From: a virus
Reading direction: 5' to 3' (one strand)
IMG/VR virus record: IMGVR_UViG_3300027987_000064
Span: 1 to 36,450 of that record
DNA: 36,450 nt
Made by a program: the position numbers and the translations under genes. Below the pieces are notes generated by a model. That model had not been told where the DNA came from, did no database searches, and saw only the letters and a list, made by a program, of their open reading frames with translations. This document shows, in pieces, positions 5,898 through 18,094 of the stretch. The number at the start of each line of letters is the position of its first letter. The stretch's first letter is position 1.

Positions 5898-6749
5898 ATG
5901 GCAAGAATCGGAACGGCACCAATCAAACCAACGGTCATCGAGGGGTTCGTGGGTCAGCTGCGAACCAACGGAAGCTGGGAGGTTGGAGAGTACACCTTCG
6001 CAGCGAAAGATCGCGACGTACATTCCGTGTTCGTCAAAGCAATCGAGGAAGGATTCAACGTTTCTGGTATGCCCAGGGCGCCGCTCGGCTCCACCATGCT
6101 GGTGTGTGGCGTTCGGTTTGTTCTGCAAGACGAGAACTCGAGACAGGTGCGTTGCCCGGACACTGGCAAGGTGCGGCTGTTAGAGCGCCTTGAAGAAGAC
6201 TGGCGCAGCGAGCAAGATGGTCGCGCCCTCATTTGGAATATCGGCAAAGGATGGTCGTTCCCCAAGAGCCTCTCAGATGTGCCTAAGTGGGAAATGACAG
6301 CTCTAGCAGCGGTATCCAAATCGAATGGGCCAGCCGCAGTAGCCTCGCAGCTGGGCCAATCCCAGTCCGTGCAGTACTGCGACGAGACCGCGGAGTATGA
6401 ACAATCGGGGCTCGAAAGCATCGCCGAGCGGACGACAGCGAAAGAGAAGGCCCCAGGCGAAACCGACGAAGAGTTCAGGGGGCGTGTGCGGCGCACTCTC
6501 TCGATCGAGCGTTGCGCAGCCTGCAACGAGCCATTCGGTTCCTTCCGCAAGCCACACTCCGGAAAGGTGCGCGGTGAGCCGGCACAAATCTGCGGCGACT
6601 GCATCGGCACGCATTGTCGCTACCCGGTTCAGGAGCGCGCTTCGAAGCGGTTCACAGCCGACACGCCGCCAGGGCCCAGCACAACTGCCGCGACCAAGTG
6701 GCACAACCAGCACACGAGCGTGGACAGCACGCCGGGATGGGAGGAGTGA
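5898..6749 (+). CDS. Unknown protein with C-terminal zinc-binding cysteines
   Basis: 283 residues. ATG 5898 is preferred because AGGAG (5886-5890) is 7 bases upstream, and GTG 5895 is an alternative. No family is recognised. The N-terminal 120 residues look folded and beta-rich (IEGFVGQLRTNGSWEVGEYTF, STMLVCGVRFVL). The middle is charged. Residues about 215-250 hold CAAC, then CGDC some 25 residues later, a CxxC-x(n)-CxxC zinc ribbon. The gene sits between dnaB and a run of small genes with overlapping stop and start codons. A DNA- or RNA-binding role is possible but unproven. Confidence 0.6.
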   Translation: MARIGTAPIKPTVIEGFVGQLRTNGSWEVGEYTFAAKDRDVHSVFVKAIEEGFNVSGMPRAPLGSTMLVCGVRFVLQDENSRQVRCPDTGKVRLLERLEEDWRSEQDGRALIWNIGKGWSFPKSLSDVPKWEMTALAAVSKSNGPAAVASQLGQSQSVQYCDETAEYEQSGLESIAERTTAKEKAPGETDEEFRGRVRRTLSIERCAACNEPFGSFRKPHSGKVRGEPAQICGDCIGTHCRYPVQERASKRFTADTPPGPSTTAATKWHNQHTSVDSTPGWEE

Positions 6750-7297
6750 TGGGCTTCATCGTTACCTGGAAAGCAAAGCGGCCCGCATCGGCAGCAGACG
6801 AGTGCTTCTATTGCCGACAGCAAATCGGTTCCGATCATGGGGCAGAATGCGTGCTCGTGATAAAGATGCAGAAGCTCAAAATCTCGATCGAAGTGGAGCG
6901 ACCAGTTCCGGCGCACTGGGACCAGAAAGCAATCGAGTTCTTCCATAACGAAGGAACTTGGTGCGCGGACAACGCTATAGATTGGCTGAAGCAGGTGCAG
7001 TCGAAGGATGGTTGTCTATGCCGGGCTACCAGGGTCGACTACCTCGATGAGTCTGGCGATCCGTTCTTGGATGAGGACGGGAAGGAACAAGCGACACCGG
7101 TTACCGTCGACTACTTTGCCAAGTGGTGCGAGTTGGTCGAGTTGCTACCGAAGTGCGACACTTACAACTGCGAGCGCAAAGCGCAGTTCGCGCATTTCGA
7201 ATCGTCGCTGTGTGCTGGTCACGCTGAAGCGAGTGACGAGGAACTCCCGTGGGCCGCCCACGTTCGCGAATGGGAGGCGTTGGAAAGCGATGAGTAA
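6749..7297 (+). CDS. Unknown cysteine-rich protein
   Basis: 182 residues from ATG 6749, overlapping the previous TGA by one base (TGATG), with GGGAGGAG at 6739-6746. It carries CFYC near residue 18, and a C-terminal CDTYNC...CAGH cluster around residues 137-160 that could bind zinc as a treble clef. An acidic stretch (DYLDESGDPFLDEDGKEQ) lies in between. No family is recognised. The next gene starts inside its last codons (ATG 7290), so the genes are co-transcribed and coupled. Confidence 0.6.
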   Translation: MGFIVTWKAKRPASAADECFYCRQQIGSDHGAECVLVIKMQKLKISIEVERPVPAHWDQKAIEFFHNEGTWCADNAIDWLKQVQSKDGCLCRATRVDYLDESGDPFLDEDGKEQATPVTVDYFAKWCELVELLPKCDTYNCERKAQFAHFESSLCAGHAEASDEELPWAAHVREWEALESDE

Positions 7298-7646
7298 ACG
7301 CAACTGGTTCGAGCTCGCCGCGAAGCACGGCCGAGCGCTTCGCTGCCTACCTATCGTTGGCGACGCGATCGTTCGCAAACTGGACCTGTGGGCACTGCGC
7401 GATGCCGAGACAGCATTTGCGGTTGCTGTGCGATACGGCATCGAGTTGAGCGCAGCAACGAAGCTGTTCGACGACTACGGATATGCTGGCGCGTGTCTGG
7501 CGTGCGAGATTGGGATGCGTGTTTGCATGCACCCACTAGACGTTCCTGAGCTGCCGTACGAGTGTCGATACCGATTGCGCGAGTCGGGGATGACTGTTGA
7601 GCAGGCAACCGAGGCGCTCGGTTTCCTGGGGAGTAAGCTGAAGTGA
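7290..7646 (+). CDS. Unknown protein, tandem paralogue 1
   Basis: 118 residues from ATG 7290, overlapping the end of the upstream gene by 8 bases. An all-helical composition is likely. Residues about 43-95 (AVAVRYGIEL...LFDDYGYAGACLACEIG... HPLDVPEL) align without gaps to part of the next gene, which points to duplication. The repeated unit has the spacing of a degenerate helix-turn-helix, but no binding function can be asserted. Confidence 0.6.
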   Translation: MSKRNWFELAAKHGRALRCLPIVGDAIVRKLDLWALRDAETAFAVAVRYGIELSAATKLFDDYGYAGACLACEIGMRVCMHPLDVPELPYECRYRLRESGMTVEQATEALGFLGSKLK

Positions 7647-8191
7647 CGACTCCAACAGCCGAAGAACTGCTTGAGCTGGTGCGACCGTGCCCGTACTCCG
7701 AGTTGTTGAGTCCACGGGAGCGCGAGTCCATGTGCATCCTGTCTACTCCCGGCGCGTCTGCTCGATGGATTGCGGAACGGTTTGGTTTCCAGGTTGGGGC
7801 CGTATCGATAGCCGTGGAAGAATATGGAGTAACCAATACGCTGTGGGCGTGCGAGACAGGGAAAGCGATCGGAGTTGAGCCGTTCGACTTGCTGTGTGAG
7901 GCAGAACGACTGCGCGAGCGCCTGGCCGGCAAGAGCTTCGAGTACAACGCCCTGACATCACTGCTCGCTTGGATGTCGCGCCCCAAGGAAGAGCCCCGGG
8001 CAATCGTTGGTTTCGTCTCCGACGCGATCCCGATGATGCATCGGCACGTCACGGAGAAAGGCAACGAGTACCGCTCTGTGAGCGAGCACCCGAGCCCGAG
8101 GATGTCCGACATCGCGGACTACTTCGCGGAGCGCGCGCCGCGCGTCGTAATGATCAAGGTTCCAAGCGACAACGGGGCCATCCGGCCATGA
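7643..8191 (+). CDS. Unknown protein, tandem paralogue 2
   Basis: 182 residues from GTG 7643 (GTGA overlap). Residues about 40-95 (WIAERFGFQV...AVEEYGVTNTLWACETG... EPFDLLCEAERLRE) match the central part of the gene before it: aromatic-Gly, '[DE][DE]YG', 'ACE.G', 'P[LF]D' and a Glu/Arg-rich end, all in the same spacing. The C-terminal half (about 100-182) is extra and ends in a strand-like RVVMIKV. It is a likely duplicate with divergence. Its role is unknown. Confidence 0.6.
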   Translation: MTTPTAEELLELVRPCPYSELLSPRERESMCILSTPGASARWIAERFGFQVGAVSIAVEEYGVTNTLWACETGKAIGVEPFDLLCEAERLRERLAGKSFEYNALTSLLAWMSRPKEEPRAIVGFVSDAIPMMHRHVTEKGNEYRSVSEHPSPRMSDIADYFAERAPRVVMIKVPSDNGAIRP

Positions 8192-8322
8192 CTTGCCTCA
8201 AACGCCCATACCCATCAGTCGCGCAAGCGAAGCGCTCCAACCGGCACGCGCGCTTCACGCTGCGTGTATACTGGTGCAACGAGTGCCGAGCGTACCACGT
8301 GACGAATCGAGGTAAGAAGTGA
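8188..8322 (+). CDS. Small zinc-ribbon-like protein
   Basis: 44 residues from ATG 8188 (ATGA overlap with the previous stop). The chain is basic, with a Cys at position 3 and WCNECRAYHVT near the end. The CxxC followed by a Tyr-His-hydrophobic-Thr strand is a pattern seen in many very small phage proteins with a single zinc knuckle. The stop overlaps a following GTG, but the ORF from that GTG is doubtful. Confidence 0.55.
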   Translation: MTCLKRPYPSVAQAKRSNRHARFTLRVYWCNECRAYHVTNRGKK

Positions 8323-8391
8323 GCGCACCAATGCCGATTCAAGACGAAGTCCAAAACGAGGCGCATTACATCGCAGACATCAGAGGATCCA

Positions 8392-8652
8392 ATGAGTCGA
8401 TACAAGTGGAGCACGTACACGGTTCAGTACACCAGAGTCGCTCCGATCGATCTCATTGACGATGCTCAAGGTGATCCGTCGGCAGAGGTAACCGTCTACA
8501 CCAAGGAGGTTCAGTACGTTCCGAGCGACCCATGGGTTGACCCGGTGTTCGTGCGGGAACAGATGCGGATGGAGCGGCAGACGGATGCCGCGATCGAGTT
8601 CTTGATGCGGCGGGCTGGGTACGCGAAGCGAAAAGAGTTGAAAGGCGCCTAG
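8392..8652 (+). CDS. Small hypothetical protein upstream of the Cas12-like gene
   Basis: 86 residues from ATG 8392, with AGAGGA at 8381-8386. The first half is beta-like (KWSTYTVQYTRVAP, AEVTVYTKEVQYVP) and the last 30 residues are helical and basic (VREQMRMERQTDAAIEFLMRRAGYAKRKELKGA). No family is recognised. It ends 19 bases before the effector gene and is probably on the same transcript. An accessory role to the effector is possible by position only. Confidence 0.5.
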   Translation: MSRYKWSTYTVQYTRVAPIDLIDDAQGDPSAEVTVYTKEVQYVPSDPWVDPVFVREQMRMERQTDAAIEFLMRRAGYAKRKELKGA

Positions 8653-8671
8653 GCGCGGAAGGAGTTGGAGG

Positions 8672-10696
8672 ATGAAAGCGACGAGAGTGTACAAGTACGG
8701 TTGCAGGCCGGAGATAACGGAGCAACTGCTCGACCAATTGAAGGCAGCGCGCGAACTGCGAACCGAGTTGGTCAACATCGAGAACAGGCGAATGGAGGAG
8801 TTCCTCGCATTGCGTTCGGTATCGTGCCCGGGGCTGGCTGAGCTTGAGGAGCAAAACGAATCGCTAAACGAGTGCATCGAAGACGTGGTAAAGCGCATAT
8901 CTTACGCCAAGAAGAGCGAGCGCCGGAAGCACCCGCTACAGGCTGAGTTGAAAGCGCTGAAAGCCGAGCGCAAACCTGTCTACGAAGCCGTGAAAGCCGA
9001 GCGCGAGAAGTTCTCGGAGCTCCTGGGTCCACACGACAAGGCATTGGCTTTGCTGAAGGATACCGCATGTGCCGCGGCTGGTTTTCCAACCAAGAAAGGC
9101 ATGAAGCGCTATTCCGATGACGGCAAACAGATGGGAGCCCACCTACTGGGTAGTCTCAGCAGAGAAGCTCTGGATGAGATGCTTGCACGCAAGGATGTGC
9201 CGACCGAGTGGAAAACAGCGAAGAACATCGACAACGAAGCAAAGCGCTCATCCAAGGCGGCCCTGAAGGCGACTCGTTGCACCAGCGGGACGAAGTTCAT
9301 GATTCACAACGACGTCATTGCTGCAGCGAAGAAGTCGAAGGGACGAACGCGGCTCAAGACGCGCTACGATCGCGAGTCGGTCGCGCTGGACATCAAGTCG
9401 CTTAGGCTGAGCGACGTTGCTAACGGAGGCTCGCCACTGCTCAGGTTCGTGAACGAGTCGACCGCATCGCACGGCAGGGTATTCGTCGACTGCATCGTGC
9501 GATTCGGCGTTCTACCCGAGCCGTTCGTTGTTGGAATGAGCGTGCTCATGCATCGGCCTCTCCCAGCCGACTCTGACATTCGCTCAGTTCGACTGTGTCG
9601 CGAGCGCATTGGGCGGCGCGAGCGGTGGACGATACAGTTCACCGTGCTGACTGATGAGCCGAACCAGAGGCGTGTCCCGAAGGGAGGAACGATCGCGATC
9701 AACATCGGTTGGCGAGTTAGAAGCGGCAAAGCTGCTATGGGTGCGCAGTTCGGAAAGGTGTCCGACATCGGCGATAAGCATGTGCGGGTTGGCGTGGCCA
9801 TCGACGACGACGGCAATGTGCGCGAGCTCACTCTTCCGGCGCGGATGCGCAGAAGGGAAGAATTCATCCGGTCGCTTCAGTCGGCGTCAGACAAGTTGTT
9901 CGATTCCGCCTTGTCCCAGTTTCGGGAGATCCGAAAGGCGCACCCTGAGTTGCTCGACTTCGAACTGGCTATTCCAGGTCGCGAGCCGGTAACACTGCTG
10001 AAGAAGACCATTCAGTGCGACAAGTGGCGCAGTCACAAGAAGCTGCTGTTCGCCATTCGTGATCTCGCGAACCACATGGGAATCGATGGGCGCCCGATCT
10101 ACGCAGAGTGGAAGAAGCAGCGCCTAGCAGCGAAGATCGACCTGTTCGCTACACTGGAGGAAACGCGCGAGTGGTTGAGCGAGAATGGCGAGTCTGAGCC
10201 TCTGCGCCAAGAGGTGATCTGGCTGTTGTTCTGGATGCGCAAATGCTACCACCTCGACTCGATGGCGCGTGACCTGATCGCCAAGACCACGGGGTGGCGT
10301 CGGGAGATATTCCGGATCTGGGCGGCGCAGTTCGCTGCAGCATACCAGACACTGGTCACCTCCGATGAGAAGTACAAGGAGCTGAAGGAAAAGAAGCCGA
10401 AGGAGCAAGACTTCGAAGGCCCGCAAGAGCAGAAGGCGCGAGCGAACCAGCACAAGGCGTCACCGGGTCTGTTGCGCTCGATACTCCGAGACGCGTTTGG
10501 TCAACGCTCCATCGTTGTGTCTGCATCCGACGTCACCAAGTTACACTATGACTGTGGGTGTGAGCTTTACGGCGACAGAAAGAAGAATGTGGCGCTTGCG
10601 TGTGAACGCGACGGCTCATATCATGACCAGGACGAAAACGCGGCACGTAACATGCTGCGAGCGGTCCTTGAAAAACGTAGCGAGGTAGCGGCCTGA
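8672..10696 (+). CDS. Compact Cas12-like (type V) effector with substituted RuvC-I and RuvC-II residues
   Basis: 674 residues. ATG 8672 has AAGGAG at 8659-8664 and GGAGG directly before it. The N-terminal 200 residues are helical and highly charged (REC-like). About residues 300-335 (IRSVRLCRERIG.RERWTIQFTV) match the WED strands that precede RuvC in TnpB/Cas12 proteins. RuvC-I is GTIAINIGWR, with N344 where the family has catalytic Asp. The RuvC-II position reads TLVTSDEKYKEL, with S564 where Glu is expected and D565/E566 beside it. RuvC-III is intact: DQDENAARNML (D652, D654). The zinc ribbon is reduced to C628-G-C630 and C644-x-x-D647. The CRISPR array starts 61 bases after the stop, and no adaptation genes are seen. 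I infer a crRNA-guided DNA binder with lost or weak cleavage. The subtype (CasPhi-like, Cas12m-like or new) cannot be settled here. Confidence 0.85.
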   Translation: MKATRVYKYGCRPEITEQLLDQLKAARELRTELVNIENRRMEEFLALRSVSCPGLAELEEQNESLNECIEDVVKRISYAKKSERRKHPLQAELKALKAERKPVYEAVKAEREKFSELLGPHDKALALLKDTACAAAGFPTKKGMKRYSDDGKQMGAHLLGSLSREALDEMLARKDVPTEWKTAKNIDNEAKRSSKAALKATRCTSGTKFMIHNDVIAAAKKSKGRTRLKTRYDRESVALDIKSLRLSDVANGGSPLLRFVNESTASHGRVFVDCIVRFGVLPEPFVVGMSVLMHRPLPADSDIRSVRLCRERIGRRERWTIQFTVLTDEPNQRRVPKGGTIAINIGWRVRSGKAAMGAQFGKVSDIGDKHVRVGVAIDDDGNVRELTLPARMRRREEFIRSLQSASDKLFDSALSQFREIRKAHPELLDFELAIPGREPVTLLKKTIQCDKWRSHKKLLFAIRDLANHMGIDGRPIYAEWKKQRLAAKIDLFATLEETREWLSENGESEPLRQEVIWLLFWMRKCYHLDSMARDLIAKTTGWRREIFRIWAAQFAAAYQTLVTSDEKYKELKEKKPKEQDFEGPQEQKARANQHKASPGLLRSILRDAFGQRSIVVSASDVTKLHYDCGCELYGDRKKNVALACERDGSYHDQDENAARNMLRAVLEKRSEVAA

Positions 10697-10743
10697 ATCT
10701 GAGCCGCTCGAAAACCGGGTAGCAGGTGCGCGAAAGTGCTTGT
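10666..10743 (+). repeat. Two degenerate CRISPR-repeat-like segments between effector and array
   Basis: At 10668-10710, AAAAA is followed by an 8-base insert and then GGTAGCGG, the same words as the repeat (AAAAAGGTAGCGG). The following bases form AGCGGC/GCCGCT (10687-10692 with 10703-10708) around a 10-base loop, in place of the repeat hairpin that also has a 10-base loop. AAAAACGTAGCGAGG here also matches 14 of 15 bases of the degenerate last repeat. A second, weaker copy lies at about 10707-10740 (GAAAACC, GGGTAGC, CGAAAG). The first spans the effector stop codon. They may be decayed repeats or a structured leader/regulatory RNA. Confidence 0.5.
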
Positions 10744-10757
10744 ATCCTCGGTGGTGT

Positions 10758-11224
10758 ATTCAAAAAGGTAGCGGATCGCCTAAAGAGTCCGACTTGCGTG
10801 GTTGTTACCTACTACCCGGGGGACTCGGATTCAAAAAGGTAGCGGATCGCCTAAAGAGTCCGACATACACGGCGCTGTGTTGGAGGTTTGCGTTGCGGAG
10901 ATTCAAAAAGGTAGCGGATCGCCTAAAGAGTCCGACTTCGCGGTCCGCGCGTTGGCCTCGGCGTGCCCGCGGATTCAAAAAGGTAGCGGATCGCCTAAAG
11001 AGTCCGACTTGAGGCGTCAGATGACGACGTTTCGGACGCGCCCGATTCAAAAAGGTAGCGGATCGCCTAAAGAGTCCGACCGAACGAGCGAGTCGACATC
11101 GTGGTCAATGGGCATATTCAAGAAGGTAGCGGATCGCCTAAAGAGTCCGACGTCGATGCCTACGCCCCGGACGAAGCCGTTGCGCGGATTCAAAAAGGTA
11201 GCGAGGCGCCTAAAGACTTTCGAC
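10758..11224 (+). CRISPR. Phage-borne CRISPR array, 7 repeats and 6 spacers
   Basis: Repeats of 36 bp start at 10758, 10829, 10901, 10973, 11045 and 11116. A degenerate 37-bp last copy is at 11188-11224. Repeats 1-5 are identical, and repeat 6 has one A-to-G change at position 7. Spacers are 10794-10828 (35 bp), 10865-10900 (36), 10937-10972 (36), 11009-11044 (36), 11081-11115 (35) and 11152-11187 (36), all different. The repeat begins ATTCAAAAAGGTAGC and ends AAAGAGTCCGAC. Its 3' half can fold as CGGAT/GTCCG (positions 15-19 with 30-34) around a 10-base loop, leaving a 3' AC. A hairpin just before the spacer fits the 5' handle of type V crRNAs read on the + strand. Decay of the last repeat puts the leader end next to the effector gene. 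Confidence 0.95.
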
Positions 11225-11242
11225 AAGCCAAAGGAGCAAAGG

Positions 11243-12469
11243 ATGGAACTACGAGACTACCAAGCAAGAGCGGTCGCTGAAGTACGAGCCAAGTGGGCAG
11301 CGGGCGCAAAGCACGTTCTGCTTGTCGCGCCGACCGCTTCTGGCAAGACCGAGATGGCGCAAGCGGCAGTTGGAAAGGCGCCGCAGTGTTGGCTCGTGCA
11401 CACGCGCGACTTGCTCGATCAGACGGCAAAGCGTCTGCGTGAGGCAACGGGTCAGCCGGTAAACGTGATCGCTGGAGGTGTAGAGCCGACGAACGGTGCG
11501 CGAATTCATGTCGCAATGGTGCAGTCGTTGTTCGGGCGAGAAGTGCCAGAAGTGAACTACCTCATTCCCGACGAATGCCATCACTACCGGGCCGACGAGT
11601 GGGAGCTTGCCCTGTATGCATTCAAGACTGCGAAACGCCTTGGGCTAACGGCCACGCCAGCGCGCTACGACAACAGGCCACTGGGCGACGTCTTCGACGA
11701 GCTTGTGGTTGCGGCGCAGATCCAGGATCTGGTTGAGCGCGGGTATCTTATGAAGGTCGATCTGCTACGCGCTCCGGAGCCGCTCAAGGGAATGGCTGCG
11801 CTGGATGCCGTGGAAGCATACATGCGCTACGCAAACGGAACGAAGGCATTCGGGTACCTGCCGTCAGTCGACATGTGCCAAGACGCCGCTCGGCGATTCC
11901 GAGAGAACGGCGTAAGCGCGAAGGTCATCGCCTACAACACCGGCGACAGCGAGCGACGCAAAGCAATGGGAGAGTTTGCAGCCGGAGAGGTGCGTGTGTT
12001 GCTCTGTCACACGACACTGACGGAGGGCATCGATGTACCGGACGCTGAGACCTGCATCCTTGGAAAGTCCTATCACCACGTCGGGCAGATGATGCAGGCG
12101 ACCGGGCGCATCATGCGTACGTCTCCGAGCAAGACGCGGGCGCTTGTGCTTGACCTCGTTGGTTGCACGCATGTTCTCGGGCATCCGCAGATCCCTCGAC
12201 TGTTCTCGCTGACAGGTGAGGCGATTAGCACACCAACCACCAACCCTGAGGCCGTTGGAAAGGAGCGCAATCCGATGCAGTGGAGCGTCGGAAACATCGA
12301 CCTGCAGGAGTTCGAGATTGTATCTGTCGGCGCCGAGGTCGCGAGAGTTCCGAGCGAAGTCATGAAGGAGCGCTGGAACGACCTGCTTGGGCTCGTGAAG
12401 CTCCGGAAGATGCGACGGTGCGAGGCATCAGCGCAATTTCACGCGGAGTACGGCCTGTGGCCAGCCTGA
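11243..12469 (+). CDS. SF2 DEAD/DEAH-box (type III restriction/RadD-like) helicase
   Basis: 408 residues from ATG 11243, with AAGGAG at 11231-11236. The frame stays open upstream through the whole CRISPR array because most units are 72 bp, so longer starts are artefacts. The motifs are complete: Q-like RDYQARAV at the N-terminus, Walker A APTASGKT near residue 32, DECHH at 110-114, LTATP at about 135, TEGIDVP in domain 2, and QATGRIMRT near 287. It is an ATP-dependent nucleic-acid translocase of the kind phages use in replication or recombination. It follows the array with only 18 bases between. A link to the Cas12-like effector is possible but unsupported beyond position. Confidence 0.88.
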   Translation: MELRDYQARAVAEVRAKWAAGAKHVLLVAPTASGKTEMAQAAVGKAPQCWLVHTRDLLDQTAKRLREATGQPVNVIAGGVEPTNGARIHVAMVQSLFGREVPEVNYLIPDECHHYRADEWELALYAFKTAKRLGLTATPARYDNRPLGDVFDELVVAAQIQDLVERGYLMKVDLLRAPEPLKGMAALDAVEAYMRYANGTKAFGYLPSVDMCQDAARRFRENGVSAKVIAYNTGDSERRKAMGEFAAGEVRVLLCHTTLTEGIDVPDAETCILGKSYHHVGQMMQATGRIMRTSPSKTRALVLDLVGCTHVLGHPQIPRLFSLTGEAISTPTTNPEAVGKERNPMQWSVGNIDLQEFEIVSVGAEVARVPSEVMKERWNDLLGLVKLRKMRRCEASAQFHAEYGLWPA

Positions 12470-12486
12470 CCAGACCAAGCGAAAAA

Positions 12487-12514
12487 CCCCCGCCCCGGTA
12501 ATCCGAGACGGGGG
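12487..12514 (-). terminator. Possible intrinsic terminator or hairpin between helicase and zinc-finger gene
   Basis: CCCCCG (12487-12492) pairs with CGGGGG (12509-12514) over a 16-base loop that can itself pair in part (CGG/CCG). AAAAA at 12482-12486 becomes a U tract after the hairpin on the minus strand, so as an intrinsic terminator it would read leftward. On the + strand there is no T tract. It lies in the 82-base gap between two + genes and may be a processing or attenuation hairpin instead. Confidence 0.35.
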
Positions 12515-12551
12515 CTGCCCTCCGGCGCAACGGCAGGAGGATAGCACAACA

Positions 12552-13619
12552 ATGCCAGCGACGACAGCGACCAAGATACACGCAGAAACGAAGCAGCAGA
12601 CCATCCAACTCGCCCCCGACGAGGCCGCTCACATCGAGTGGTTTTTCGACGAGGGAATCGCCACGTTCGAGCGATCGAACCTGGGCCCGCAACTGGAGCG
12701 CCTCCGGAGCGCCTCACGCGGCACCTACGAATGCCGGACCTGCAAAGGTCGCCGATTCGTCAAGGTTCGGCTCGCGACCTGCGGGCATTGCCGCGGCACC
12801 GGCTGGTTGGAGCCCACCAACCTGGTCGACACGCAACAGCGGTGCGGGCACTGCAAAGGCAAGTGTGTCGTTCGGCTCGCCCCCGAGTCGAAGCGGACGG
12901 ACTACTACACCGTGAAGGACTTGTGCGCCCCCTGCCGCGGGACTGGCGTCACTGCCCGCAAGCGAGGCCACCAGAGGCGAACTGGGGCGATGACGGCGCG
13001 CCCGGGGGTTATCAGGGAGTGGCGCGCCCCGGTTTACCCGGACGAGTACGACGTCGAGCGCTACGGAATGGTAGCGAGGCGGCTCATGCGGATGACCGAG
13101 CGGCACGCACTCGCGATCTACGCCTACCACTGGATTGGGCAGCAGTACGCGGCGAACGTGAACACGGGCCCGCTCTGGGCGGTCATGGCGCTGACGGTTG
13201 CGGGGCGACGGCTCGTAGAGCGCAACAGCGACAAGCCGCCAAAGGCACTGGATGGGCATCAGCTGCAGCTCCACAGCCGTGCCCAGGACCACGCCGACAT
13301 CGACGGCAGCTGCGTGGACCCCGGGTTGGTCGACGATTGGCAACTGCTCACTCAGCCAGAGCTGTTCACCGAGCTGTCCCACACGCCCAGCGACGGGGGG
13401 AGCGAAGCCCGGCAGCGCACGGCACTGTTGGCGGCGGCGAAGCGCCAGGCCGAGACGCTCTACCGGGCCGCCGTGCTGGAGTGGCAGACCCTGGGCGATG
13501 GACAGGTGGCGAGATCTCGAGCGAGGACGCCCAAGGCACCACGGACCAAGGCGACCACACTGAAGGACGTGAGAGCGCTGCTCAGGCGTCTCGAGGTCGT
13601 CGAGGTGGTCGTCCGATGA
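12552..13619 (+). CDS. Protein with DnaJ-type cysteine-rich zinc-finger domain
   Basis: 355 residues from ATG 12552, with AGGAGG about 11 bases upstream. Residues 61-132 hold four CxxCxG-type motifs (C61/C64, C77/C80, C98/C101, C125/C128), which is the DnaJ central zinc domain that binds two zinc ions. There is no J domain and no DnaJ substrate domain. The remaining 220 residues are mostly helical (RYGMVARRLMRMTERHALAIYAYHWIG) and end in a basic region. Such proteins in lambdoid phages often precede the late genes, and some antiterminators use zinc fingers, so a regulator of late transcription is one guess. The next gene overlaps its stop (ATGA). Confidence 0.6.
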   Translation: MPATTATKIHAETKQQTIQLAPDEAAHIEWFFDEGIATFERSNLGPQLERLRSASRGTYECRTCKGRRFVKVRLATCGHCRGTGWLEPTNLVDTQQRCGHCKGKCVVRLAPESKRTDYYTVKDLCAPCRGTGVTARKRGHQRRTGAMTARPGVIREWRAPVYPDEYDVERYGMVARRLMRMTERHALAIYAYHWIGQQYAANVNTGPLWAVMALTVAGRRLVERNSDKPPKALDGHQLQLHSRAQDHADIDGSCVDPGLVDDWQLLTQPELFTELSHTPSDGGSEARQRTALLAAAKRQAETLYRAAVLEWQTLGDGQVARSRARTPKAPRTKATTLKDVRALLRRLEVVEVVVR

Positions 13620-15342: not shown

Positions 15343-16044
15343 ATGCATCCACTTTCTCGCTCCGAGTTCGCGCGACTTGCAGGCGTATCCCCCGCGGCCG
15401 TGACGAAGTCCGCGCAGAGCGGGAAGCTCGCGCCGGCGTGCTCGGGAGATCGAATCGATGCTGAGCACCCGGCTGCTGTCGAGTACCTGGCATCCCGCGG
15501 GGTCGCTTCGCCTGTTTCCGACGCTGCCCAGACCAAGTCGGAAGAACCGTCATCTGGGCGACCGTCTCGACCGACGCCGGTGAAGCGAGCCGTCGCAGAA
15601 AAGCCGGTTTCGAAGCCCGGGCGCCGACCGAAGTACACGCCGCCGGCGGACGTAAACCCCGATGGGGACGACTTCCTCGACAAGTGCGGGCACATGACGT
15701 TGCGGCAGATCGCGTCGCGCTGGGGTACGATGCGAGCGTTTCGCGACCACCTCGACGCGCTGAAGAAGATCGAGGACACCCGCGGCAAGCGTCTCGAGAA
15801 CGACGAGACCGAAGGGCAGCTGATCTCGAGGGAGCTGGTCAAGTCGCACGTGTTCAGCGCGATCGAGTCGAGCAATCGACGGCTGCTGCGCGATGTGCCT
15901 CGGACCGCGACGCGTCGGCTGTACGCAAACGCCAAGTCTCGCATCCCACTTGAGGAGTCCGAGACGCTCGTCCGAGACCTGATCGGATCCGTGCTGCTCC
16001 CGACGAAGGAGACGCTCGTTCGCGTGTTGCGCAATGGCGAGTAG
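15343..16044 (+). CDS. Terminase small subunit (Nu1-like)
   Basis: 233 residues from ATG 15343. No Shine-Dalgarno is obvious, but the HTH begins immediately after it. Residues 1-50 (LSRSEFARLAGVSPAAVTKSAQSGKL) form a winged HTH like that of lambda Nu1, which binds cos DNA. A Pro/Lys-rich linker follows (about 70-105), then a helical C-terminal part that would bind the large subunit. It directly precedes and overlaps the GpA-type large subunit, the lambda order. Confidence 0.8.
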   Translation: MHPLSRSEFARLAGVSPAAVTKSAQSGKLAPACSGDRIDAEHPAAVEYLASRGVASPVSDAAQTKSEEPSSGRPSRPTPVKRAVAEKPVSKPGRRPKYTPPADVNPDGDDFLDKCGHMTLRQIASRWGTMRAFRDHLDALKKIEDTRGKRLENDETEGQLISRELVKSHVFSAIESSNRRLLRDVPRTATRRLYANAKSRIPLEESETLVRDLIGSVLLPTKETLVRVLRNGE

Positions 16045-18094
16045 GCGTCGGCGCAAGTCTGATGAAGCTGACGCGCAAGAGGTCGAAGTAGAACTTGGTG
16101 CGCTCCAGTCGATAGAGGATCCGTACGAGAACCCGGAGCAGCGCGAGTGGCTTGCGAAACAGTTCGAGTCTCTGACCACCGAGATGGTGGTTTTGACCCC
16201 CAGCGAGTGGGCTGAATCGAAGCGCTACTTGCCGCCGGCGGTGACGGCGATGCCGGGCTACTACCGGTTCGACGTCGCGCCGTACATCAAGGAGATCGTC
16301 GACTGCCTAAGCGTCGATTCGCCGATCCGCGAGGTGTCGGTGATGAAGGGCGTCCAGTTGGCTTTCACGGTCGGTGTTCTAGAGAACGCGATCGGCTACT
16401 TCATCGAGCACGTCAAGACGGCTCCGATGATGCTGGTTACGGCGGACGCGGAACTCGCAAAGCTTCGCATGGAGTCATACGTGACGCCCATGCTCCAGTT
16501 CTCTGGGCTCGACCACCTGATCAGGTCGTCGGACGAGAAGAACACCAGGAAGACTGGCAAGACAGACAAGAAGATCGAGTGGGTCGGCGGCGGGTATCTC
16601 GTTCCGTTCGGCGCTCAAAACGCGAACAAGCTACGATCGCTGTCCGTCCAGATTCTGCTGAACGACGAGATTGACGGTTGGCCAGACGTCGTCGGCAAAG
16701 ACGGCGACCCCGTGAAGCTCGTTCGAGACAGAACGTCGGCTTACGAGGGCAGTCGCAAGATTGTCGACGGTTCGACTCCAACCATCAAAGGCCAGTCGAA
16801 GATCGAGGCGCGGTTCCTGCAAGGGGACCAGCGCTACTACTTCGTAAACTGCTTGAAGTGTGGGCACAGCCAAACGCTTCGGTGGAGCCGCAAGCATCCT
16901 GTTACCGGCATCCGCACCGGCATCGTTTGGGAACTCGACGAGCACGGTCAGGTCGTGCCCGATTCGGTCCGGTACCTGTGTGAGCAGTGCGGTCACGCCC
17001 ACTCGAACGACGACAAGACAAGGCTACTTGACCCCGAGTGCGGGGCAGAGTGGCGTGCCACAGCGACGCCAGCAAACCCGGACCACCGCAGCTACCACAT
17101 CAACGCGCTATACTCCCCCGTGGGGATGAAGACGTGGCTGGCGTGCGTGTACGAGTGGCGCGAGGCGTGGGACGACGAGCGGGGCATTCCGAAGGACTTC
17201 GGCAAGCTCCAAGTCTTCTACAACAACGTTTTGGGTGAGACCTTCGAGCTGCAGGGCGAGAAGGTTAAGTTCCAGCAGGTCTCATCACATCGCCGGCAGT
17301 GCTATCGAAGCGGCGAGATCCCGAACACCTGGGCTCAGAAGTTCTGTGGCTCGAAAGTGCTCGTGCTTGTCTGCACGGTCGACGTGCATGCCGACAACCT
17401 GGCGGTTGCGGTGTGGGGTTGGTGCCGAGACAGGCGCGTCGTGCTCATCGAGTACACGAGGCTTTGGGGCACGACTTCGCAACTCGACGACACGGGCACG
17501 TGGGGCGCGTTGTCGTCGCTAATCGAGCAGCGCGAGTATCGGTCAGACGACGGCAAGCAGTATCGAATCTCGATGACGCTTGTTGACTCCGGTTACCAAG
17601 CGGACGTCGTCTACAACTTCAGCGCTCTGTACGAGTCGGGCGTATTCCCCGTGAAAGGGCAAGCCCAGTCGCAGAGCGCGTCGATCAAAGAGTTCCACGC
17701 GTTCAAAACGCCGCAAGGTCCGACTGCCTACGGCATCACCGTGGACATGTACAAGGACCGTTGGGCGCCCGCGTTGCGTCGCAACTGGGACGGGCAAAGC
17801 GAGCAACCAGCAGGATTCTTCAACGCGCCGATCGACACGACCGACGACCAGCTGAAAGAGCTGACCGTCGAGGTCAAGAGGGAGAAGCGCGAGCCGAGAA
17901 CGAACAGGCTCATCGGATGGGAGTGGTTCCGACCATCCGGGGCGAAGAACGAACTCTGGGACCTGCTCATATACTCAAACGCAGCTCTGGATCTGATCGC
18001 GCACGACTTGTGCCGCAACACCTACGCGATGGAGTTCGTCAACTGGACGTTCTTCTACGACGAGGCGGAGAAAGGGCTGTTCTTCGAAGGCTAA
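16034..18094 (+). CDS. Terminase large subunit, lambda GpA family
   Basis: 686 residues (lambda A has 641) from ATG 16034, overlapping the small subunit by 11 bases. The ATPase has a divergent Walker A in VSVMKGVQLAFT near residue 102, as in the GpA family where the P-loop is non-classical, and a Walker B-like VQILLNDEIDGW near 205-215. A zinc-binding pair follows (NCLKCGH about 275, LCEQCGH about 315). The RuvC-like nuclease starts at VLVCTVDVHADNL near residue 450. It cuts and translocates DNA into the prohead. Confidence 0.95.
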   Translation: MASRRRRKSDEADAQEVEVELGALQSIEDPYENPEQREWLAKQFESLTTEMVVLTPSEWAESKRYLPPAVTAMPGYYRFDVAPYIKEIVDCLSVDSPIREVSVMKGVQLAFTVGVLENAIGYFIEHVKTAPMMLVTADAELAKLRMESYVTPMLQFSGLDHLIRSSDEKNTRKTGKTDKKIEWVGGGYLVPFGAQNANKLRSLSVQILLNDEIDGWPDVVGKDGDPVKLVRDRTSAYEGSRKIVDGSTPTIKGQSKIEARFLQGDQRYYFVNCLKCGHSQTLRWSRKHPVTGIRTGIVWELDEHGQVVPDSVRYLCEQCGHAHSNDDKTRLLDPECGAEWRATATPANPDHRSYHINALYSPVGMKTWLACVYEWREAWDDERGIPKDFGKLQVFYNNVLGETFELQGEKVKFQQVSSHRRQCYRSGEIPNTWAQKFCGSKVLVLVCTVDVHADNLAVAVWGWCRDRRVVLIEYTRLWGTTSQLDDTGTWGALSSLIEQREYRSDDGKQYRISMTLVDSGYQADVVYNFSALYESGVFPVKGQAQSQSASIKEFHAFKTPQGPTAYGITVDMYKDRWAPALRRNWDGQSEQPAGFFNAPIDTTDDQLKELTVEVKREKREPRTNRLIGWEWFRPSGAKNELWDLLIYSNAALDLIAHDLCRNTYAMEFVNWTFFYDEAEKGLFFEG

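Follow-up and report, generated by a model that had tools for sequence, protein, structure and literature searches.

What kind of CRISPR system is carried by a small phage that encodes it at positions 8672–11223 of the IMG/VR virus record IMGVR_UViG_3300027987_000064, and what could such a system do? The window analysed here is the whole contig of 36,450 bp, in which a first-pass annotation, made from the sequence alone, had described a compact CRISPR locus of type V, encoded by the phage, with a single effector and matching no nameable subtype. The description of the locus is supported by our analysis, and the subtype can now be named: the sequence of the protein, its profile matches, its predicted fold and the structure of the repeat make it near certain that the effector belongs to type V-M Cas12m (formerly V-U1). 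Weighed against its rivals, the reading that we consider likely is a phage-borne V-M system that silences by binding, i.e., what is probably a binding-only CRISPR effector placed in a small phage.

All features of the locus lie on the plus strand. The effector gene (8672–10696) is an open reading frame (ORF) of 674 codons with an ATG start and without internal stop, and the CRISPR array (10758–11223) begins after a spacing of 61 nt from the stop codon to the first repeat (10697–10757), so that the protein length, the strand and the distance given in the first-pass annotation all hold. Seven repeats of 36 nt start at 10758, 10829, 10901, 10973, 11045, 11116 and 11188, and enclose six distinct spacers of 35–36 nt each (spacer 1, 35 nt, 10794–10828; spacer 2, 36 nt, 10865–10900; spacer 3, 36 nt, 10937–10972; spacer 4, 36 nt, 11009–11044; spacer 5, 35 nt, 11081–11115; spacer 6, 36 nt, 11152–11187). 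Repeats 1–5 are identical (ATTCAAAAAGGTAGCGGATCGCCTAAAGAGTCCGAC), repeat 6 carries one change, and the degenerate last repeat (11188–11223) was assumed to mark where the array ends distally. Five identical 36-nt repeats with a period of 71–72 nt cannot be of chance origin.

The identity of the effector was approached by sequence, profile and predicted structure. A phmmer search against all PDB chains returned five matches at E ≤ 1, all of them Cas12m (8hhl, 8hio, 8pm4, 23vw and 23vu; 8pm4 is labelled ‘Transposase’ in the phmmer list and Cas12m in the structure comparisons). When a profile of 27 relatives was used, the five Cas12m chains scored 300–630 bits over nearly their whole length, the next best being TnpB-like proteins with at most 69 bits over the C-terminal part, and chains named Cas12f stayed below 50 bits. 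The AlphaFold2 model of the full-length effector (pLDDT 83.5, pTM 0.69) holds the WED/RuvC strands, as the first-pass annotation had proposed for the WED domain, together with long helices at 53–135 (REC insertion). Ranks 1–4 in Foldseek were all Cas12m (best E 8.8e-22), and the best VIA-align match was 8pm4 (Z 21.9, rmsd 5.3, 534 residues), with another Cas12m at Z 21.2 over 531 residues. The best Fanzor and TnpB both reached Z 15.0, the TnpB being aligned over 335 residues; the TnpB/Cas12 fold, on which the earlier description depended, is thus found in the model.

PADLOC gave the effector another name, since its model labelled Cas12f (1.2e-51) came just ahead of Cas12u1 (1.4e-49). The control set consisted of five relatives and the Cas12m of an Allomeiothermus silvanus plasmid, the last equated by its organism with the published MsCas12m. 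All six proteins were matched by both models, and the ‘Cas12f’ model PDLC01692 ranked first for the plasmid protein (4e-94). The PADLOC label therefore does not separate V-F from V-M, and PDLC01692 (labelled Cas12f, V-F), used alone, would mislabel V-M loci. Cas12f (V-F) was rejected on these grounds, there being no Cas12f among the phmmer matches and low scores in both the profile search and the fold comparison (Z 13.0). CasPhi (Cas12j) and CasLambda were set aside as well (Z 12.8 and 11.4, vs 21.9 for Cas12m), as was a new type V subtype, since profile, Foldseek and VIA-align all place the effector in Cas12m. A TnpB or TldR protein was rejected because an array is present and the NCBIfam TnpB match (18.6 bits) is far below its cut-off of 100; a Pfam scan of the effector gave nothing above cut-off.

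The active site is where the window protein stands apart. RuvC-III is present as had been claimed, with the motif DQDENAARN and its aspartate D654 (codon at 10631–10633) kept. MAFFT was used to align 33 proteins, that of the window among them, with a fragment (L065) and duplicate loci excluded from the count of triads; the triad is readable in 32 and is the canonical D-E-D in 25. The window protein has N344-S564-D654 in both the MAFFT and the HMMER alignments, the remaining six triads are N-D-D, H-E-D, D-E-H, D-A-D, D-N-D and D-K-D, and the window protein is the sole one of the 32 in which neither of the first two RuvC sites carries an acid. N344 (9701–9703) stands at the RuvC-I position, where most relatives have D, and S564 (10361–10363) at the RuvC-II position, where most have E; independently of MAFFT, these two residues fall on His317 and Asp485, respectively, when the protein is aligned with Cas12m2 by HMMER (numbering counted from the printed alignment coordinates). 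As aligned, N-S-D means that the window member has lost more of the cutting site than the relatives examined. N-S-D is also not among the Cas12m triads given in the passages cited, which are D-E-D, N-E-D, D-N-D, H-D-D, N-D-D, H-E-K and H-Q-K (PMC10442227, PMC11013384).

Published work gives these substitutions a context. In the cited passages, Cas12m proteins with D-E-D, H-D-D or N-D-D bind dsDNA in a PAM-dependent manner without cleavage, plasmid interference is reported for two of four variants tested, and pre-crRNA processing by MsCas12m proceeds without a RuvC acid (PMC11013384), while RuvC inactivation is described as having arisen independently several times in type V (PMC12669027). Since acids are absent at RuvC-I and RuvC-II, the effector is very likely dead for cutting, judging by its own residues and by its relatives. 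Two of the four ligands of the zinc ribbon (10544–10612) are changed too, H625-x-x-C628 ... C644-x-x-D647 replacing CxxC...CxxC, and the HxxC first half is also seen in the printed sequences of Cas12m2 and 8pm4 (GoCas12m). The WED domain keeps H294-R295 (9551–9556), aligned with His269-Arg270 of Cas12m2, a pair with a possible role in crRNA maturation (PMC10442227, passages cited); in a 19-row alignment R295 is invariant and H294 occurs in at least 90% of rows.

The repeat fits the same family. The crRNA of Cas12m is described as folding into a pseudoknot with a triplex (PMC11013384, passages cited), and we examined 25 repeats from 28 array-bearing loci (a clear full repeat being absent from L028, L050 and L060). 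The structure looked for consists of two interlocked stems of at least 3 and at least 4 bp, of which the second stops 2 nt short of the 3′ end. Such a pseudoknot is possible in 23 of the 25, missing in L027 and L062, and a 2-nt junction is common to 17 of the 23. The window repeat offers interlocked stems of 4 bp and 5 bp (nine pairs, G-U counted), matched by 0.15% of 2000 shuffles, a figure that is no blind test, as the geometry was picked after these repeats had been viewed. By its base pairing, the window repeat can form the V-M pseudoknot. Elsewhere in the window, exact anti-repeats are at most 11 nt long, by which absence of a tracrRNA is not proven.

Taken together, the window effector is like Cas12m2/MmCas12m, GoCas12m and MsCas12m in its full-length fold, helical REC insertion and WED His-Arg pair, and its locus is like V-M in general in its adjoining array, pseudoknot repeat and non-canonical RuvC. 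It differs from the five solved Cas12m chains in length (674 aa vs 577–614 aa) and in sequence, being 17–21% identical to solved chains in structural alignments, and from the studied Cas12m in its N-S-D triad and its place in a 36-kb phage contig. Going by the characterised relatives, the array would be transcribed in the sense direction together with the gene, and the effector would work with a single crRNA and without tracrRNA; crRNA processing would be independent of RuvC and might draw on the retained WED His-Arg pair. The effector-crRNA complex would bind PAM-flanked dsDNA without cutting it, and tight binding would block transcription or replication of the target. The likeliest use would be to silence phages, prophages or plasmids that compete with this phage in a shared host while it replicates or resides there. 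No window spacer has a convincing protospacer, so that this use is suggested by the family; silencing of rivals is favoured over gene regulation. A natural variant minus two RuvC acids could separate the roles of the metal in gripping DNA and in processing RNA. A sigma-70-like promoter was looked for in 6500–13000 and not found.

Phage-borne Cas12m has been published before: a tree of landfill viruses links 24 viral sequences to Cas12m (PMC12607003), and V-M is ‘also encoded by some prophages’ (PMC11656645), in the passages cited, so that the window locus is a divergent variant of a kind already known. Our two viral scans found 13 and 23 V-M loci in overlapping sets, with an array of ~72-nt period at all 13 loci of the first. 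Repeats of that period lie within 3 kb of 28 of 33 effectors, the other five including some in short or contig-edge stretches (for L026 the repeat scan chose another repeat, and the array was seen in the first-scan check). The window locus shares with the other phage-borne V-M loci (Rctr197k, IMG/VR, landfill viruses) the Cas12m gene and its adjoining array of ~72-nt period; those loci mostly have D-E-D and mostly lie on larger contigs (23 records, 13.7–321 kb).

No relative turned up when IMG/VR was scanned with the single window protein as query, and the same protein matched in five of 97 related genomes, its own included (G005, G022 and G050 were used; a match in G063, E 3e-4, was dropped as unrelated). 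A scan of genome contigs with a five-row alignment gave six loci, three of them already known. In the phage collection, searched with a limit of E 10, there was one long match (23% over 98% of the query, E 4e-8), to the effector of Virus Rctr197k; the search with a limit of 1e-5 listed no match. Virus Rctr197k (KX853510; locus KX853510.1 108507–118168, L018) has an intact 622-aa Cas12m with a D-E-D triad that is annotated only as ‘similar to transposase’, with one annotated CRISPR adjoining and a second ~7 kb away. In two trees the window protein groups with the phage effectors L022 and L044 (support 94/95 with L025 in, 92/94 with L025, L030 and L064 out), a grouping that is tentative because the branches are long. 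As side observations, the 321-kb virus record G100 (L025) combines a D-A-D triad with the same HxxC zinc half, and its repeat, of which more copies occur elsewhere in the record, resembles that of the window; two related Cas12m genes from G050 and G005 (L013, L014) have H-E-D and D-E-H triads, and no array was detected in the stretches scanned.

What the window spacers target was searched for in several sequence sets, and none of the six has a convincing protospacer. Searching the whole array by blastn against phages and plasmids gave best E values of 0.1 and 0.4, taken as chance, and an exact 18-mer scan of IMG/VR with spacers 1, 2, 4 and 5 gave one match, for spacer 4, in which the similarity stops at the seed. 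The relatives’ genomes (97 for spacer 1, 59 for the others) were scanned with at most 3 mismatches over the first 24–26 nt: spacers 1, 2 and 4 had no match outside the array; spacer 5 had six matches vs none for its reversed control, at best 26 of 35 over the full length on both strands; spacer 6 had one, 27 of 36; and spacer 3 had 21 vs six for its control, at best 30 of 36 (G065) among the eight of 21 checked. All matches of spacers 3, 5 and 6 in these genomes were rejected as unconvincing. Spacer 3 has 81% GC, and chance matches are frequent; its 30-of-36 match (L203, contig C1050 of G065) has mismatches inside the seed. Against the window itself no spacer matched beyond the shuffle level (best 25 of 36, spacer 6, reached by one of 100 shuffles), and none matched its own genome bin outside the array within 3 mismatches over the first 24–26 nt.

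Among the related phages a different picture emerged. The sample comprised 18 IMG/VR array records, two further viral records (G103, G117) and Rctr197k (of 23 IMG/VR records, G110, G111 and G112 were left out), and 233 distinct spacers from 20 array-bearing records (18 IMG/VR, Rctr197k and the window) were scanned against 22 sequences (2.32 Mb), using the first 24 nt, at most 3 mismatches and excluding arrays. Six of the 233 spacers, in five of the 20 records, match their own record outside the array: 36/36 in G097 (L022), 35/35 in G100 (L025), 41/41 and 37/37 in G101 (L026), 33/36 in G106 (L031) and 37/41 in G118 (L062). The two in G101 match one place on opposite strands, in a Uma2-family gene ~0.6 kb upstream of cas12m, and two of the six (G106, G118) are held in secondary arrays. 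The reversed-spacer control gave two matches, both at the 3-mismatch limit (24 of 38 and 26 of 40 overall). No spacer matched another sequence of the 22, which says little because the records are mostly unrelated. In the passages seen in the literature on Cas12m and self-targeting, self-matching spacers in phage Cas12m arrays are not reported; they provide a case on which the idea that phages control genes by CRISPR can be tested.

TldR proteins are RuvC-dead, and their systems are not known to have a CRISPR array. The window effector resembles them as a phage-encoded TnpB relative that would act by binding, and phage TldR proteins regulate host flagellin (PMC13418256, passages cited); in the fold comparison the window effector is clearly closer to Cas12m than to TnpB. 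An RNA-guided regulator of the phage’s own or host genes, as a CRISPR counterpart of the TldR repressors, would agree with the self-matches in related arrays, which exceed the two partial matches of the control and are joined by no match to any other sequence in the set, and self-binding would be tolerated given the nuclease-dead look of the effector. None of the window’s own spacers matches its phage beyond the shuffle level, or its bin outside the array within the mismatch limit, however, and the self-matches in the relatives could possibly be stray acquisitions of phage DNA, for which reasons we regard regulation as unlikely here, if a reading to be kept in mind. A broader idea, that some phages keep a nuclease-dead Cas12m with its array as a programmable repressor, with guides that include their own genes, and that the N-S-D of the window marks the far end of this trend, a metal-free RuvC purely gripping DNA, is put forward as a speculation with a small chance of being right.

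With two RuvC acids out of three and half of the four zinc ligands changed, and with its long branch, the effector could also belong to a locus in decay, or could be a decoy that counters CRISPR by crRNA binding alone, a role proposed for a phage Cas9 whose RuvC is inactivated (PMC10910872, passages cited). The ORF is intact, though, its full-length model is fairly confident and the WED His-Arg pair is kept; five repeats are identical, the six spacers are distinct and the repeat can form the V-M pseudoknot; the array adjoins the gene, unlike that decoy Cas9, which has none; and the repeat pair beside a cas1 gene of the bin is unlike that of the window. Loss of function or a decoy role thus appears improbable to us. 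We give hardly any credence to a new type V subtype with a nuclease that cuts, a reading which could appeal to the intact RuvC-III and the D-E-D of most family proteins: metal-binding acids have given way to N344 and S564, the studied Cas12m leave dsDNA uncut even with D-E-D (PMC11013384, passages cited), and the subtype is assignable by profile and fold. Silencing by binding itself has points that weigh against it. The RuvC-II position at S564 rests on the alignment, and because D565 directly follows, this neighbour could serve in its place, giving N-D-D. The highest identity to any relative is ~28–29% across most of the length, on a long branch; no adaptation genes are seen adjoining the locus; convincing protospacers are lacking for all six spacers; and the link from phage to host rests on binning.

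The phage setting claimed by the first-pass annotation is borne out by the gene content, as 18 of the 20 window proteins scanned have a PHROGs family at E ≤ 0.001, including DnaB helicase, terminase, portal, head protease, major head protein, tail sheath, tape measure and baseplate, a set that covers replication, the head and the contractile tail of a tailed phage. The terminase large subunit (16034–18094), which marks this setting, has an identity of up to ~50% among the matches listed (8 of 445 records), and since those records are 42–51 kb, the window may represent the greater part of a small phage or prophage genome; an overlap between the contig ends was looked for and not found. The contig belongs to a 10.4-Mb genome bin (96.5% complete, 6% contaminated), in which two cas1 matches lie in long open frames of 642 and 959 aa (L209 and L210, on contigs C285 and C290 of G000), one of them adjoining two copies of a 32-nt repeat unlike that of the window; adaptation in trans by the host was considered and set aside. 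PADLOC matches of 11 window proteins, a subset of the window ORFs, include no Cas1/Cas2 models; a Cas10 match at E 0.002 and cross-matches of helicases in the scan were judged unspecific.

Downstream of the array, a phage DNA helicase (phrog_16, 11243–12469) begins after 19 nt. A relative of this helicase is present in one of 27 V-M loci, and a conserved pairing of Cas12m and helicase was rejected on that count. The array reads open and in frame with the helicase at 10802–11242, so that a mechanical ORF call lengthens the helicase through the array (555 aa vs 408).

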